The translations under genes were made by a program, and so were the position numbers. The notes below the pieces were generated by a model. That model saw only the letters and a list, made by a program, of their open reading frames with translations, was not told the origin of the DNA and made no database searches. From a virus: a DNA stretch of 24,796 bases. This document shows, one piece after another, positions 10,383-22,399 of the stretch; the stretch's first letter is position 1; every line of letters begins with the position of its first letter. Location: positions 1-24,796 of IMG/VR virus record IMGVR_UViG_3300003937_000281. One strand, given 5' to 3'.

Positions 10383-11247
10383 ACAATCTAATATAAGTTA
10401 TTCTCAATATTCTATGTGGTCACAATGTCCTCATAGATGGAAATTAAATTATATTGATAGATTATCTACCTTTACAGATAGTATACATACTTTGTTTGGT
10501 ACAGCTATGCACGAAACGATGCAAACTTGGATACATTGTATTTATAATAAGACAGCTAAGTTAGCAAATGAATTGGATTTGGAAGATTTATTACTTTCTC
10601 GAATGAAGACACTTTACCACGAGAAAATGGAATTAGAAGGTGCAGAACATTTTACCACACCTGAAGAATTGACAGAGTTTTGGAAAGATGGTTGTGCAAT
10701 TTTAGATTTTCTTAAAAAACGTAGAGGTGATTATTTTTCTAAAAAGGGATATGAATTGTTGGGAGTGGAAACTGAAATAAATTATCCACTACAAGATGGG
10801 ATTATATTTAGAGGATTTATAGATTTAGTTATTAAAAATAAAATAACTGAGAAGATAAAAATTATAGATATCAAAACTTCCACAATGGGGTGGAATAAGT
10901 GGATGAAAGCAGATAAGAATAAAACATCACAGCTTTTGTTATATAAGCAGTTTTATTCAAAGATGTATGACTACCCAATAGATAAGATTGATGTAGAATA
11001 CTTTATCGTTAAACGTAGATTGTATGAAAATGTAGATTGGCCTCAAAAAAGAGTTCAATATTTTTCACCAGCAAGTGGAGTACCATCTATGAATAAAGTA
11101 ATACTTAATTTAAAGAATTTTGTTAAAGAGGGCTTTACAAACGGAAAGCATAATACGGAACATAACTATAGAAAAGAAGCATCCAAGAAAAACTGTAAAT
11201 GGTGTGAATTTAATCAGACAGAACATTGTGATGCGGGAGTGAAATAA
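10363..11247 (+). CDS. PD-(D/E)XK nuclease (RecB/Cas4-like) with putative Fe-S cluster cysteines
   Basis: This is a 294-residue nuclease. GTAMHE (residues 46-51) supplies the first catalytic His/Glu motif. GFIDLV has Asp154, and IIDIKTS has Asp169 and Lys171, completing the RecB/Cas4-type PD-(D/E)XK site. A Cys at 22 (SQCPHRWKLNY) plus C278, C281 and C289 (CKWC...C) at the C-terminus reproduces the one-plus-three Cys layout that holds a 4Fe-4S cluster in Cas4 and AddB-type nucleases. I chose the GTG at 10363 because GGAGG lies four bases upstream and the overlap with the MORN gene falls to 20 nt. An ATG at 10270 would add 31 residues of unlike composition. Likely roles are recombination, end processing or degradation of host DNA. 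Confidence 0.85.
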   Translation: MQKIQPKQSNISYSQYSMWSQCPHRWKLNYIDRLSTFTDSIHTLFGTAMHETMQTWIHCIYNKTAKLANELDLEDLLLSRMKTLYHEKMELEGAEHFTTPEELTEFWKDGCAILDFLKKRRGDYFSKKGYELLGVETEINYPLQDGIIFRGFIDLVIKNKITEKIKIIDIKTSTMGWNKWMKADKNKTSQLLLYKQFYSKMYDYPIDKIDVEYFIVKRRLYENVDWPQKRVQYFSPASGVPSMNKVILNLKNFVKEGFTNGKHNTEHNYRKEASKKNCKWCEFNQTEHCDAGVK

Positions 11248-11696
11248 TGGCACTACAGAAAATTAGTTTAAGAATATATCTACCACATTTATTAGAAAGT
11301 GAAAAGGCATTAGATTTTTTAACAACTACATATGAAGAGTTAAAAAACCCAACAACAGCATTGTATTTGTGGTATGATGAGGAAAAGGATAAGGTTGAAC
11401 CGAAAGATATTAAATCCTTTATAGAACTGTGGGAAAGTAGAAGTCATTATAGAACATATATACAGACTAAATTAGTTAGAGGCCCTCAAAATTTTATATG
11501 GTTTGATATTGTACCTATCGGAGTTGATACATCCGAGGTATCTGGTAGGTTTCAATATCATTATGGTAATTCAAATCAATTGGTAAAAGGAATTGAAAAA
11601 TTTAAAGAAATTGTAGAATTTTGTTCTGATAGTAGACCAATTAAAAAACAAAAAAGAACTGATAGTAAAAATGAAGATAGGAATCGTAGGAAGTAG
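11247..11696 (+). CDS. Conserved-looking phage protein, function unknown
   Basis: This 149-residue protein is not recognised. It has an alpha/beta look in the first 125 residues and a strongly basic, disordered tail (KKQKRTDSKNEDRNRRK), which may bind nucleic acid. There are no Cys clusters, signal peptide or transmembrane segments. The start makes a TAATG overlap with the nuclease stop and is preceded by GGGAG. Its last 26 nt overlap the SLOG gene. It is probably co-translated with the nuclease and might assist it; that is inference from position only. Confidence 0.72.
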   Translation: MALQKISLRIYLPHLLESEKALDFLTTTYEELKNPTTALYLWYDEEKDKVEPKDIKSFIELWESRSHYRTYIQTKLVRGPQNFIWFDIVPIGVDTSEVSGRFQYHYGNSNQLVKGIEKFKEIVEFCSDSRPIKKQKRTDSKNEDRNRRK

Positions 11697-12312: not shown

Positions 12313-13691
12313 AGAAAAAGAAAATATTACTGCTCTCAGATGATTTAAGAATGTCGAGTGGAGTAGGTACTGTTTCAAAAGAGTTTGTATTAGGTACTGT
12401 AGAACATTATGACTGGGCCCAAATTGGAGGGGCTATAAAGCATCCAGATGAAGGTAAAGTGATAGATATGAATGATGCTTTAAAAGAAGATTATGGAGTA
12501 GAAGGGGGATATTTAAAAATATATCCTTCAAGTGGTTATGGCAATCCTGAAATGTTAAGGTCAATTTTAAGGTTGGAAAAACCAGATGCGATAATGATTT
12601 ATACAGACCCACGGTTTTGGTTATGGTTGTATCAAATGGAAAGAGAGATTAGGTCACAAATACCTATTTTCTATTACAACATTTGGGATGATTTACCTTA
12701 TCCTATGTGGAATCAACCATTTTATGAGAGTTGTGATTTACTTATGAACATTTCTAAACAGACGGTTAATATTGTAAAAAATGTAAGACAAAATAAACCA
12801 GTAGAAGATTGGCAATGTACATATGTTCCACACGGAATTAATTCCGATGATTTTAAACCCGTAGATGAAACTGATGCTAAGTTTGTACAGTTTAGAGATG
12901 AGTTATCTCAAGGTAATGAATATTCTTTTATTGTTTATTTTAATAATAGAAATATTAGAAGAAAAAATCCTGGAGATGTTTTAATGGCGTTTAAAACTTT
13001 CACAGATAAGTTATCCGAAGAAGAAAGAAAAGAATGTGCATTAGTGATGCACACACATCCAGTAGATAATAATGGAACGGATTTACCAGCAGTAGCAGAT
13101 GCCTTGATGCCAGATTTAAATGTAATATTTTCTGGGGCAAAACTTGAAACAGACCAGATGAATTTTTTGTATAATATTGCAGATATTACTGTTAATATAG
13201 CATCGAATGAAGGATTTGGATTAGGAACTGCAGAATCTGTTATGGCAGGAACACCAATCATAGTAAATGTTACTGGTGGAATGCAAGACCAATGTGGATT
13301 TAGATATAAGGGTAAAATATTAACCTCTAAAGATTATGAGTGGGTACATACTTTACATAATAGAAAAGAATGGAAAGACAATGAAGATTTGACTTGGGGT
13401 GAATGGGTAAAACCTGTTTGGCCAGCATGTAGGTCATTACAAGGTTCAGTACCCACACCATATATCTTTGACGACAGAAGTGATTTTGAAGAAGTTGCAG
13501 ACCAAATACATGAGTGGTATAAAGTACCAAAAGAAGAACGAGATGAAAGAGCGTTGAAGGGTAGAGAGTATATGATGAGGGATGATACACATCTTTCGGC
13601 TAAAGGAATGTGTGATAGATTCATAGAAGATATGGATACCGCATTTGAGAAATGGACACCAAGAAATAATTTTGATTTAGTAGAGGCGTAA
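12309..13691 (+). CDS. Glycosyltransferase, GT4-like (GT-B fold)
   Basis: This is a 460-residue retaining-type glycosyltransferase. The acceptor-side N-terminal domain begins ILLLSDDLRMSSGVGTVSKEF, the usual group 1 pattern with a Gly-rich loop. The linker has YVPHGI near residue 170, and the donor domain carries NNRNIRRKNPGDVLMAF. The diagnostic donor-binding loop SNEGFGLGTAESVMAGTP starts at residue 299, followed by NVTGGMQDQ. It uses an unknown nucleotide-sugar and acts in the cytosol; there is no membrane segment. It is coupled by ATGA to the upstream gene, and the next gene starts at the base after its stop. A second GT4-like enzyme follows, so the two may work in sequence on one glycan. 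Confidence 0.88.
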   Translation: MKKKKILLLSDDLRMSSGVGTVSKEFVLGTVEHYDWAQIGGAIKHPDEGKVIDMNDALKEDYGVEGGYLKIYPSSGYGNPEMLRSILRLEKPDAIMIYTDPRFWLWLYQMEREIRSQIPIFYYNIWDDLPYPMWNQPFYESCDLLMNISKQTVNIVKNVRQNKPVEDWQCTYVPHGINSDDFKPVDETDAKFVQFRDELSQGNEYSFIVYFNNRNIRRKNPGDVLMAFKTFTDKLSEEERKECALVMHTHPVDNNGTDLPAVADALMPDLNVIFSGAKLETDQMNFLYNIADITVNIASNEGFGLGTAESVMAGTPIIVNVTGGMQDQCGFRYKGKILTSKDYEWVHTLHNRKEWKDNEDLTWGEWVKPVWPACRSLQGSVPTPYIFDDRSDFEEVADQIHEWYKVPKEERDERALKGREYMMRDDTHLSAKGMCDRFIEDMDTAFEKWTPRNNFDLVEA

Positions 13692-18623: not shown

Positions 18624-19436
18624 ATGTTATTAGATTATATTGGAACAGAAAAGGGTGGAATAGGGTTAAGACAAAAGATGGCCTCAGCCAGTCTCAATGA
18701 AATAGATACTATAAGTGATTCTTTAGGTTATTTTTATGATGTATATTCAGAAGATAGTTATTATGTTATATTAATACGGGATGTACTTGATAAATGGAAA
18801 AGTGGGTATATAGAAGAATTGAAAAAAAGTGATCCTTGGATTCGTTCTGGAGCGGGCAGATTATTTAATTTTAAAACTTTTGAGAATGGATTTTTAAATA
18901 AAGATTTCAATACTATTAATATGATAGATTTGATGAAGTTTATGCACGAACCTAATAGTTTTTATGGTATTGATTGGATGTATAATAACCAACATTCGTG
19001 TTTTTGGCTTTGGAATAATAATCATGAGATTCCCAAACAGAATGCAGTTTCTCAGTTAGATGATTTTATTAAATTATCTAATGTATATTTTTTAGAATTA
19101 AAAGATTTAAGTAATCCAAAATTTTTAAAGTGGTTACAAAATAAAGATGATGGTTGGAAATCTATAAAAGAGATCCCATATCTTCATAAAACACCAGAAT
19201 ATTTAAAATATCAATTAAATATGTTTTGGGATCAATATCAGGAAGCAAAAATTTTAAAAAGTGAAAAGTTATTTAGTCCATTAATGATACATTCACTTGA
19301 TAACGGGTGGACTGGAGATATGATGTATAATTACCATACTGCAGAACTTGATTTAATTAAATGGAAATTAAAGCACCAACAAAAAATAGTAGAAACTATA
19401 AGAAAAGAAAGTGAACGTTATTTAAACTTTAAATAA
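18624..19436 (+). CDS. Sulfotransferase-like protein, copy 1 of tandem pair
   Basis: This is a 270-residue protein. Two stretches resemble the PAPS-binding loops of sulfotransferases: YIGTEKGGIGLRQKM (residues 5-19) at the position of the 5'-phosphosulfate loop, and LIRDVLDKWKSGY (50-62), with Arg52 and Ser60 at the position of the 3'-phosphate loop (RDP-x-x-x-x-x-SGY). The rest is Trp-rich and not recognised. The copy after it is about 60% identical by eye. If correct, it transfers sulfate from PAPS to a sugar, fitting the glycan block, but no PAPS synthesis gene is visible. It could instead be an unclassified P-loop-like transferase. There is little RBS. Confidence 0.55.
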   Translation: MLLDYIGTEKGGIGLRQKMASASLNEIDTISDSLGYFYDVYSEDSYYVILIRDVLDKWKSGYIEELKKSDPWIRSGAGRLFNFKTFENGFLNKDFNTINMIDLMKFMHEPNSFYGIDWMYNNQHSCFWLWNNNHEIPKQNAVSQLDDFIKLSNVYFLELKDLSNPKFLKWLQNKDDGWKSIKEIPYLHKTPEYLKYQLNMFWDQYQEAKILKSEKLFSPLMIHSLDNGWTGDMMYNYHTAELDLIKWKLKHQQKIVETIRKESERYLNFK

Positions 19437-19446
19437 TGTAAAGAAA
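19397..19446 (+). repeat. 50-nt 3'-end direct repeat, copy A
   Basis: The last 40 nt of the first sulfotransferase-like gene plus 10 nt beyond its stop recur at 20245-20294 with one difference in 50 (C at 19427, T at 20275). The shared part includes the post-stop sequence TGTAAAGAAA, so the duplicated unit extends past the gene. Confidence 0.85.
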
Positions 19447-19453
19447 ATATAGA

Positions 19454-20284
19454 ATGTTAATTGATTATGTAGGAACAGAAAACGGGGGAATAGGGTTAAG
19501 ACAAAAGATGGGCACTAGCACTCTTGGATTAGTGTCGGCCAACGGAGGCGATGTAGTACGACATCGTTTATGGAGTAATTATTCTAAAGATGATCAACAT
19601 TATTATGTTATATTGATAAGAGATGTATTGAGTAAATGGAAAAGTGGGTATATAGAAGAATTAAAAACAAGTAAGCCTTGGATATGTGCAGGGGCGGGTA
19701 GATTATTTCATTTTAATGTTTTTGAAAACGGATTTTTAAAAAATGATAAAAATACTCTTAAAATAATTAATCTTATGAAAGAGATGCATGATCCATATGG
19801 TATTTATGGTATTTATTGGATGTATCATAAATTACATTCGTGTTTTTGGCTATGGAATAATGCTAAAAATGTTGAAAATCAATGTGAAGATTCGTTTACC
19901 CAGTTAGATGAATTAATTAATTTACCTAATATATATTTTTTAGAATTAAAAGATTTAAGTAATCCAAAATTTTTAGAATGGTTACAAGAGAAAGATGATA
20001 ATTGGAATAGGATATCAGAGATACCCTACTCACATAAAACACCAGGACATTTTAAGTCACAGATAGAATTATTTTGGGAACAATATAAAAAAGGAAAAAT
20101 TTTAGTAGATCAACAGTTATTTAGTCCGTTAATGATAGAGTCGGTTGCTACAGGTTGGATAGAAGATATGATGTATCATTATCATTCTGGAGAACTTGAA
20201 TTACTTAAATGGAAATTTAAGCATCAGCAAACTCTAATAGATAATATAAGAAAAGAAAGTGAACGTTATTTAAATTTTAAATAA
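19454..20284 (+). CDS. Sulfotransferase-like protein, copy 2 of tandem pair
   Basis: This 276-residue paralogue of the gene directly upstream keeps the same proposed PAPS-binding stretches, YVGTENGGIGLRQKM (residues 5-19) and LIRDVLSKWKSGY (54-66). They are nearly identical to the first copy, as are blocks such as HSCFWLWNN, YFLELKDLSNPKFL and the C-terminal IRKESERYLNFK. Between residues 20 and 50 the two proteins are almost unrelated, and this copy is a few residues longer. That pattern fits two enzymes with shared donor binding but different acceptors. Both intact frames argue that the duplicate is used. Sulfotransferase identity is moderate; the paralogy is certain. Confidence 0.57.
   Translation: MLIDYVGTENGGIGLRQKMGTSTLGLVSANGGDVVRHRLWSNYSKDDQHYYVILIRDVLSKWKSGYIEELKTSKPWICAGAGRLFHFNVFENGFLKNDKNTLKIINLMKEMHDPYGIYGIYWMYHKLHSCFWLWNNAKNVENQCEDSFTQLDELINLPNIYFLELKDLSNPKFLEWLQEKDDNWNRISEIPYSHKTPGHFKSQIELFWEQYKKGKILVDQQLFSPLMIESVATGWIEDMMYHYHSGELELLKWKFKHQQTLIDNIRKESERYLNFK
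19549..19566 (+). other. 18-nt near-palindrome in the diverged segment of copy 2
   Basis: CGATGT and ACATCG are exact inverted repeats around the six-base centre AGTACG, giving an 18-nt palindrome with one mismatched pair around GTAC. It lies in the short segment where the second sulfotransferase-like gene differs from the first and is GC-richer than the surroundings. It may be chance, a recombination hotspot or a restriction-type site. Confidence 0.4.
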
Positions 20285-20294
20285 TGTAAAGAAA
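20245..20294 (+). repeat. 50-nt 3'-end direct repeat, copy B
   Basis: This is the second copy of the repeat at 19397-19446 (49 of 50 identical). It spans the 3' end of the second paralogue and 10 nt of the following spacer, just upstream of the ATG at 20299. The near-identity against weaker gene-wide similarity suggests recent exchange or selection on this stretch. Confidence 0.85.
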
Positions 20295-20298
20295 TAAA

Positions 20299-21540
20299 AT
20301 GTCAGATAATAGAATTATAAGTTTTATACAGCCAAGTAGAAGTAATTTAAAATATTTAAAGTGGTCGTATAATAGTATCAGAAAGAATTTAGGATACAGA
20401 CACGAGATATGTTGGGCCGATGATTTCTCTGATGACGGAACTTGGGAATGGATGAACGAGATTGCCGACAAGGATAAGAATGTAAAGATACATAGAAATG
20501 AAGGGCCTGAAAGATTAGGTCATACAATTTTATATGATACATTAGTGGAGTTGGCTTCAAATGATATTGTGATGATTTTTCATGCTGATATGTATGCGTG
20601 TCCCAAGATGGATGAAGAAGTCTTAAAACATTTAGAAAGAGGAAAGGTAGTAAGTGCTACAAGAATAGAGCCACCACTACATCCTGACGGGCCCGAAAAG
20701 ATATTACAAGATTTTGGTATAGAACCTGAAGAATTTGATGAATTAGGACTTATGAAGTTTTTAGACGAGGAAACACCTTGGACAAATATTATTGAACAAG
20801 AAGTAAAAGAAACTACTGAAGGTATATTTGCACCTTGGGCAATGTACAAGGAAGATTTTCAATCTATTGGTGGTCACGATCCATTATACGCCCCACAATC
20901 AAAAGAAGATTCAGATATATTCAATCGGTTTGTTTTAGCAGGATATGAATTAATACAAACTTGGAAAGGTTTTGTATATCATATGACATCCAGAGGTTCG
21001 AGATTCAAAGATGGGGCAATGAGAAATCCTGCGGGACAAGTGTTTATGAAAGGTAGAGAGAGTAGTGAGTGGTTGAAGCAAAACCTTCGTAGCACCCGTA
21101 ATTTCATACGCAAATGGGGGCATATGGTACGACATGATGCACTGATGAAACCAATCATTCCCCCGAAGTATGATGTAGGATTTGTGGTTCATAATTGTAA
21201 TACTGAAATGTTAAGAGAATTAGAGCCGTGGTGTAGTGATATTTATGGAGATTGGGTAGGACATAAAGGATTAGGTGCCAATGATTATATTAAGAAAGAA
21301 CAACCAGATACACAATTTGATTTGAGTAAAAAAATTCATTCTCAACATATAGAACCAAAAAATGATGTGGTGGTTGAATTTGATTGTAACCTTCTATCAC
21401 CTCAGAATTTTCAGATATTAGTGAATTTATCGGATATACTTAAAGATTCAGGTGAAGTAGGAGAGTTGGAATTAGAAGTATTCAAGTTTAAGATTAAAAA
21501 ATTAGAGGATTATTCTAAGGATTTAATAAATGTTGTTTAA
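20299..21540 (+). CDS. Glycosyltransferase family 2-like protein, two-domain
   Basis: This 413-residue protein has an N-terminal GT-A domain: first strand ISFIQPSR (residues 7-14), DDFSDDGTWEW (41-51) as the nucleotide-binding turn, and FHADMY (94-99) as the metal-binding DxD equivalent. SIGGHDPLYAPQSKEDSD around 200 is the typical GT2 acceptor-side motif, as in polypeptide and chain-extending GT2 enzymes. The last 130 residues form an extra domain of unknown function (VVHNCNTEMLRELEPWCSD onward). The gene is longer than most in this block and contains a locally GC-richer stretch near 21080-21170. It overlaps the next gene by 11 nt. Confidence 0.83.
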   Translation: MSDNRIISFIQPSRSNLKYLKWSYNSIRKNLGYRHEICWADDFSDDGTWEWMNEIADKDKNVKIHRNEGPERLGHTILYDTLVELASNDIVMIFHADMYACPKMDEEVLKHLERGKVVSATRIEPPLHPDGPEKILQDFGIEPEEFDELGLMKFLDEETPWTNIIEQEVKETTEGIFAPWAMYKEDFQSIGGHDPLYAPQSKEDSDIFNRFVLAGYELIQTWKGFVYHMTSRGSRFKDGAMRNPAGQVFMKGRESSEWLKQNLRSTRNFIRKWGHMVRHDALMKPIIPPKYDVGFVVHNCNTEMLRELEPWCSDIYGDWVGHKGLGANDYIKKEQPDTQFDLSKKIHSQHIEPKNDVVVEFDCNLLSPQNFQILVNLSDILKDSGEVGELELEVFKFKIKKLEDYSKDLINVV

Positions 21541-22399
21541 TAGAATTTTTGATAATAAATTACACGTTATAGGTGAGGTAGATAATTTAGGTTTTGATAA
21601 TTCAGAAGGATTAAGAATTCCAGATGAATATTTAGAAAATGAAGAATTTGTTATATGTAGAGGTGCTCAAGGAATTGGAGATTGGGGAGTAATATCTGCA
21701 ATGCCGAGATTATTAAAAGAAAAGTATCCAGATTGTAAGGTAATAATACCATCAAGTAAAATGATTAAAAGTATATTTGAAGTGGATTCTAATATTTCAG
21801 AATTGATATTTGCCAATAATCCATTCGTAGATGAGTTTGTTGATGAGATTAATGATGAAGTGTTTCACGACCATTATAGAATATATGATACAGATATTAT
21901 TGATGTACCACTTATTAAACAAATGTTAAAGTTTTGGCAGTTTGAAGAAAATGAAATGGAAGACTGTAGACCAGAAATGTATTGGAGTGATGAGGAAAAA
22001 GAATTAGGTGATGGGATTATAAAACAAGTTGTAGGTGATAAAGTTTTTGGTGGACTATTGGTATCTGATAGATTTGGAACTCAATATGGAAACCATAATG
22101 AATTAACCTTAAAGAACGAAACTTACAAGATAACTAAAATTTTAAAAGAAAATCCATTACCATATTTTTATTGGACATTCAAACCCATTGGAGAAACACC
22201 ATTCTTTTTTACAAAACTAGCTTTAGATATGAGAAATATAGATTTGAGAATTCAGTTATATATTAGGTCAAAGGCAAAGTTAAATGTAGGTAATCAATGT
22301 GGTACTTTACAAACCATTAGTAGATATTCGAAACTTTATACAGTTCAACGACAGTTTCCAATTGCACACAATTATGTAGATGGTGAGATTTATTTATGA
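21530..22399 (+). CDS. Possible GT9-like (heptosyltransferase-type) glycosyltransferase
   Basis: This is a 289-residue protein. Residues 45-67 (GAQGIGDWGVISAMPRLLKEKYP) followed by CKVIIPSS match the start of GT9 ADP-heptose transferases, where R-x-x-x-x-G-D precedes a helix ending in P. The C-terminal NVGNQCGTLQTISRYSKLY around 255-272 could be the donor-domain end. No complete GT9 signature is visible, so function is inferred from this local match and from the transferase neighbours. The start overlaps the upstream gene by 11 nt and the stop overlaps the next (ATGA). Confidence 0.5.
   Translation: MLFNRIFDNKLHVIGEVDNLGFDNSEGLRIPDEYLENEEFVICRGAQGIGDWGVISAMPRLLKEKYPDCKVIIPSSKMIKSIFEVDSNISELIFANNPFVDEFVDEINDEVFHDHYRIYDTDIIDVPLIKQMLKFWQFEENEMEDCRPEMYWSDEEKELGDGIIKQVVGDKVFGGLLVSDRFGTQYGNHNELTLKNETYKITKILKENPLPYFYWTFKPIGETPFFFTKLALDMRNIDLRIQLYIRSKAKLNVGNQCGTLQTISRYSKLYTVQRQFPIAHNYVDGEIYL

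Follow-up and report, generated by a model that had tools for sequence, protein, structure and literature searches.

A tandem pair of putative sulfotransferase-like genes among the glycan-modification genes of an uncultured T4-like phage

The window analyzed here, a whole virus record of 24,796 bases (IMGVR_UViG_3300003937_000281), carries two neighboring genes, p1 and p2, that are a genuine tandem duplicate pair with both open reading frames intact. The explanation we favor, and consider probable, is that a compact sulfotransferase-like gene within a glycan-modification cluster was duplicated in tandem in this lineage. Its products would work by a PAPS mechanism, and the segment in which they diverge most is a linker under weak constraint.

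The tandem pair and its relatives

The window comes from an uncultured T4-like phage, since the nearest match of its gp43-type DNA polymerase fragment is Microcystis phage Mel-JY01 (44%). The pair is flanked by glycosyltransferase-like genes, and the window further encodes an epimerase, a cytidylyltransferase, and Gfo/Idh and Ldh_2 dehydrogenases. A twin contig from a different metagenome, IMGVR_UViG_3300037674_001117, spans the entire window at 99.9% identity and differs from it by 22 substitutions, all outside 18624-20298. Most of these fall in two short tracts within glycan-cluster genes, 13259-13391 and 22179-22228, a clustering that is the pattern expected of recombination tracts. The sliding-clamp-like gene (window about 1813-1820) is 30 nt shorter than in the twin contig, i.e. 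10 codons in frame.

In a two-sequence comparison, p1 and p2 showed 61% identity and 75% similarity (E = 5e-124), in line with the value of about 60% given by a first-pass annotation of this DNA. The 50-nt repeat that it had placed at the 3' ends of the genes, with 49 of 50 positions identical, was also confirmed, the two copies lying 848 nt apart (Table 1). In a tree of the seven family sequences described below, p1 and p2 are sisters with a support of 0.997; the duplication therefore occurred inside their own lineage, as far as seven sequences can tell.

Table 1. Coordinates of the tandem pair, its motifs and its repeated or conserved stretches (window positions for p1 and p2)
Feature	Position	Strand	Basis
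Copy 1 (p1), predicted sulfotransferase-like protein, 270 aa	18624..19436	+	ORF; family alignment
Copy 2 (p2), predicted sulfotransferase-like protein, 276 aa	19454..20284	+	ORF; 61% identical to p1
p1 likely 5'-phosphosulfate-binding loop KMASASL, residues 18-24	18675..18695	+	motif in 7/7
p2 likely 5'-phosphosulfate-binding loop KMGTSTL, residues 18-24	19505..19525	+	motif in 7/7
p1 linker from loop to next strand, residues 25-45, diverged segment proper	18696..18758	+	family-pair conservation
p2 linker, residues 25-49, with 5 aa inserted compared with p1	19526..19600	+	G+C-rich start; near-palindrome 19549-19566
p1 predicted 3'-phosphate-binding motif RDVLDKWKSGY, residues 52-62	18777..18809	+	alignment; profile-profile matches; PF03567 match of L131
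p2 predicted 3'-phosphate-binding motif RDVLSKWKSGY, residues 56-66	19619..19651	+	alignment; profile-profile matches
p1 nucleotide-conserved island, NVYFLELKDLSNPKFL	19080..19127	+	42-46/48 identical in L107, L116, L130
p2 copy of island, NIYFLELKDLSNPKFL	19928..19975	+	47/48 to p1
3' repeat of p1, C-terminal codons and spacer	19397..19446	+	49/50 vs 20245-20294
3' repeat of p2, C-terminal codons and spacer	20245..20294	+	49/50 vs 19397-19446
Island in L107	6436-6483		46/48 to p1
Island in L116	1809-1856		45/48 to p1
Island in L130	5413-5460		42/48 to p1

Neither protein had a direct match in Pfam, PHROGs, NCBIfam or PDB. Protein searches with p1 and p2 against 50,697 phage records gave no match, a search of the genome collection returned nothing new, and the sole additional contig in the first viral scans was the near-identical twin. 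Relatives were obtained by scanning IMG/VR with degenerate DNA patterns and then applying a profile filter. This yielded five distant relatives from outside the window's population, L107/L030 (36%), L116, L130, L131 and L135, the last of which is a second, more distant paralogue sharing one record with L116. The resulting set of seven proteins (p1, p2, L107, L116, L130, L131 and L135) probably represents a small, hitherto unrecognized sulfotransferase-like phage protein family. L107 and L130, two records from one metagenome, both carry a B12-binding radical SAM gene a short way upstream of their sulfotransferase-like gene: two genes intervene in L107 (2035-4071) and none in L130 (2940-4883). 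The L131 record also holds a distinct ORF (10893-11495) with a textbook-looking ATPRSGSTSL loop, which was matched by no phage record.

Putative PAPS-binding motifs and the probable sulfotransferase assignment

Three motifs were found in all seven members of the alignment: [KR][MQ][GA][ST]x[ST][LI]; R[DNS]x5[KV]SG, located 22-31 aa downstream of the first; and, around residue 160, [IV]YFx(4)LS[NK]P, which covers a strand plus a helix. At the motif level, the first two would correspond to the layout of a PAPS-binding 5'-phosphosulfate-binding (5'-PSB) loop followed by a 3'-phosphate-binding (3'-PB) motif. Residues K18-L24 are the likely loop because the preceding GTE stretch varies freely while the next seven residues are kept in all members, the relatives reading KMGTQSL, KMGSTSI, RMGSTSL, RMGSYSL and KQGSCSL. 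The near-identical PAPS loops proposed in the first-pass annotation were the wrong segment. The stretch concerned, GTE[KN]GGIGLRQ, was rejected as a PAPS loop: relatives read GTEYLKISKFL, GTESVRIGMNN, GTDKVVIGKSA and GTKEVAIARQL there, and just GT and one Ile are retained.

The closest approach to a known profile comes from L131, which matched Pfam Sulfotransfer_2 (PF03567) at E = 0.0013 and 19.4 bits, below the 22-bit cut-off, with the match covering its 3'-PB motif (RDPIKRFKSGY). The PF03567 profile gave no match for p1, p2, L107, L116, L130 or L135. Because it has no score above the curated cut-off, the pair is not assigned to PF03567; the missing profile match marks a limit of sensitivity rather than a biochemical trait that defines these enzymes. 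Two genes downstream of L116 lies a true Sulfotransfer_2 gene (49.6 bits), and its loop PRTGGTSIKS parallels NKMGSTSIKS of L116. When the family profile was compared by hhalign with five phage (cyanophage) sulfotransferases, two of which are near-copies of one another, every best match fell on the 3'-PB motif. Taken singly, these matches are weak (probability no higher than 10%) and cover the 3'-PB stretch only; they were used solely as a ranking against controls, in which 0, 2, 6, 11 and 34 of 300 control ORFs, per sulfotransferase, were as good.

Structure modeling gave a pLDDT of 36 from two sequences and of 51 from six (pTM 0.50), the latter still of low confidence. Examined for the five-stranded parallel sheet with a PAPS site that marks PAPS-dependent sulfotransferases, this low-confidence six-sequence model had the sulfotransferase SULT7A1 as its best PDB neighbor (E = 3.9), and against a viral library sulfotransferases took ranks 1, 2, 7 and 29 of 29, none significant; no fold match of the poor model was significant, with E at least 1 throughout.

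The sulfotransferase relation is indirectly supported because the motifs recur in seven diverged proteins, L131 has a near-threshold profile match and the genes sit in a glycan-gene setting. Judged from these features, p1 and p2 are predicted, with reasonable confidence, to be sulfotransferase-like. The first-pass description of the genes as tandem sulfotransferase-like paralogues therefore stands outright for the tandem pair, and for the sulfotransferase part indirectly, through motifs, L131 and context. The same annotation had regarded a missing profile match as counting against the relation; p1 and p2 themselves have none, and the relation is rescued by their relative.

Two other readings of the motifs were weighed. 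The proteins might be nucleotide-binding or sugar-modifying enzymes other than sulfotransferases, resembling the PSB and 3'-PB elements by convergence, and the lack of a direct profile match for p1 and p2 and the low model confidence (pLDDT 51) would agree with this. We consider it rather unlikely, as the motif pair occurs in the correct order in seven diverged members, and both the L131 match to PF03567 and the hhalign ranking against the 300 control ORFs speak against it. The other reading would refine the favored explanation rather than replace it. p1 is the sole member with Ala replacing the loop Gly (Gly20 to Ala), Gly being present in 6/6 others; therefore, one copy may be impaired. p1 could accordingly be a decaying or regulatory copy with a weaker PAPS loop, and p2 the putative active enzyme. 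Apart from KMASASL itself, the evidence runs the other way and makes such a division of roles unlikely: the p1 ORF is intact and unchanged in the twin contig, its remaining motifs are all kept, and its Ala and Ser substitutions are conservative. Ala also occupies the loop-Gly position in the 2-O-sulfotransferase HS2ST.

The diverged linker and the nucleotide-conserved island

The first-pass annotation described residues 20-46 of p1 and 20-50 of p2 as nearly unrelated. The lowest identity in the pair is found at p1 residues 26-40 (17% aa, 44% nt), and the truly diverged part covers approximately residues 25-40 (18696-18743). The description is accurate for this part but not for residues 20-24, where ASASL and GTSTL are a conservative pair within a motif common to the entire family, nor for residues 41-46, which are alike between p1 and p2. 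Across the 21 family pairs, the linker (residues 25 to about 45) nearly always ranks last or close to last in conservation. Between p1 and p2, the lowest 20-column window holds 5/20 identities. Permutation gave p = 0.030, and stratifying by family conservation raised this to 0.042; both tests are post hoc, and the clustering of mismatches is weak and only marginally beyond chance. The diverged segment is the loosest linker of the protein family, which is the ordinary explanation for it.

The p2 segment stands out in composition. Bases 19511-19571 have 51% G+C compared with 30% in the window, which places them in the top 0.1% of 60-nt windows, and their codon choice is atypical. No G+C shift was seen in the linkers of relatives, and no donor of the G+C-rich segment was found in the window, the twin contig, the loci or the phage collection. 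Import of a short G+C-rich piece, in p2 only, is possible. A second patch with strongly atypical codon choice lies at 21040-21110. The palindrome reported earlier in the copy 2 segment is present as the near-palindrome CGATGTAGTACGACATCG, yet it is not distinctive: a total of 26 16-mers in the window have one mispair or none, and the RNA fold at this place is unexceptional for its composition (z = -1.3). It was therefore rejected as a functional element.

These data bear on the proposal in the first-pass annotation that the segment is a cassette-like variable acceptor pocket between fixed flanks. In this reading, an exchangeable acceptor-pocket cassette between fixed PAPS-binding flanks would be shuffled or diversified among copies and phages. 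It would account for the segment being the least similar part of p1 and p2 and for the foreign-looking composition of the p2 segment, with its 51% G+C and unusual codons, and in sulfotransferases in general the residues after the PSB helix can add to the acceptor site. However, the segment as delimited reaches into the likely PAPS loop and takes in half of it, conservation of the linker is low in almost all pairs of the family, and the linkers of relatives lack a composition shift. No donor or template copy of the segment was found in the window, the twin contig, the loci or the phage collection, and no reverse transcriptase in the six records, which are fragments. The single population-level comparison, with the 99.9% identical twin contig, revealed no differences within 18624-20298; an absence of extra variation in the segment, which the annotation itself had named as contrary to its proposal, thus holds as far as one twin contig shows. 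Taken with the family-wide low conservation of the linker, these results leave the cassette very improbable, and the proposal was dropped in favor of the loose linker. Diversity-generating retroelements and recombination cassettes likewise have a localized variable stretch within a conserved gene, but no reverse transcriptase (six fragmentary records), template repeat or population variation (one twin contig) was found here, and a diversity-generating retroelement was rejected for want of the first two.

A separate stretch of the genes is conserved at the DNA level. About 48 nt around YFLELKDLSNPKFL have 42-47/48 DNA identity among members that are otherwise about 50-57% identical in nucleotides, and L131 has 41/48 to p1; over their whole length, these relatives are 52-57% identical to p1. 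Where amino acids are identical, 115 of 139 island codons agree, compared with 79-82 ± 8 expected from codon usage, an agreement reached in 0/5,000 and 0/10,000 simulations; the island was selected after the fact and the codon test covers five genes. Other blocks showed little or no excess. The synonymous-codon excess of the island exceeds codon bias, and could be explained by recombination through the stretch, by a DNA- or RNA-level constraint, or by local codon preference. A tentative and rather unlikely suggestion is that the island encoding NVYFLELKDLSNPKFL has been kept by repeated short-handle recombination or by some intragenic function of its DNA or RNA. When IMG/VR was scanned with a pattern able to pick up exact island copies whatever the gene, the only hits were members of this family and unrelated chance matches. 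A weaker partial copy (24/31) at 20340-20370, close to where the downstream glycosyltransferase gene begins, encodes SNLKYLKW compared with SNPKFLKW and may be due to chance.

Proposed mechanism and relation to known sulfotransferases

Under the sulfotransferase explanation, the loop K18-M-[G/A]-[T/S]-x-[S/T]-L24 would hold the 5'-phosphosulfate of host-made PAPS, and R52/S60 in p1 or R56/S64 in p2 would bind its 3'-phosphate. The acceptor of the sulfate would be a hydroxyl or amino group on a sugar structure, at the virion or the host surface, that the adjoining glycosyltransferases and sugar-nucleotide enzymes would make. The differing segment would form the end of the PAPS loop and an unconstrained helix or linker ahead of the next strand. 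Being weakly constrained, it would have diverged once the gene was duplicated, and acceptor preference may have shifted somewhat in the process.

Sulfotransfer_2 proteins (PF03567), known from cyanophages and from L116's genome, resemble the p1/p2 family in having a PSB-like loop followed by an R-[DN]-P-x-x-R-x-x-S motif, and share its glycan-gene setting. In contrast to them, p1 and p2 are profile-unmatched and read KM(G/A)(T/S)x(S/T)L in the loop. The C-terminal half of p1 and p2 is long and carries FWxxY and ERYLNFK motifs. A catalytic PSB Lys and a 3'-PB site, as in NDST1, are common across sulfotransferases (PMC3733922), as is the PSB with its catalytic Lys in HS2ST (PMC6081452). K18 and the R...S motif of p1 and p2 would be the counterparts of these elements, whereas searches of the PDB detected no chain similar in sequence to either protein.

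The analysis brings out a small phage protein family that standard profiles overlook and, with moderate confidence, connects this family to sulfation within the glycan clusters of phages. The island, if confirmed in more members, would point to DNA-level constraint or short-handle recombination within a phage enzyme gene. Sulfated sugars, whether on the virion or on the host, could influence adsorption or superinfection.
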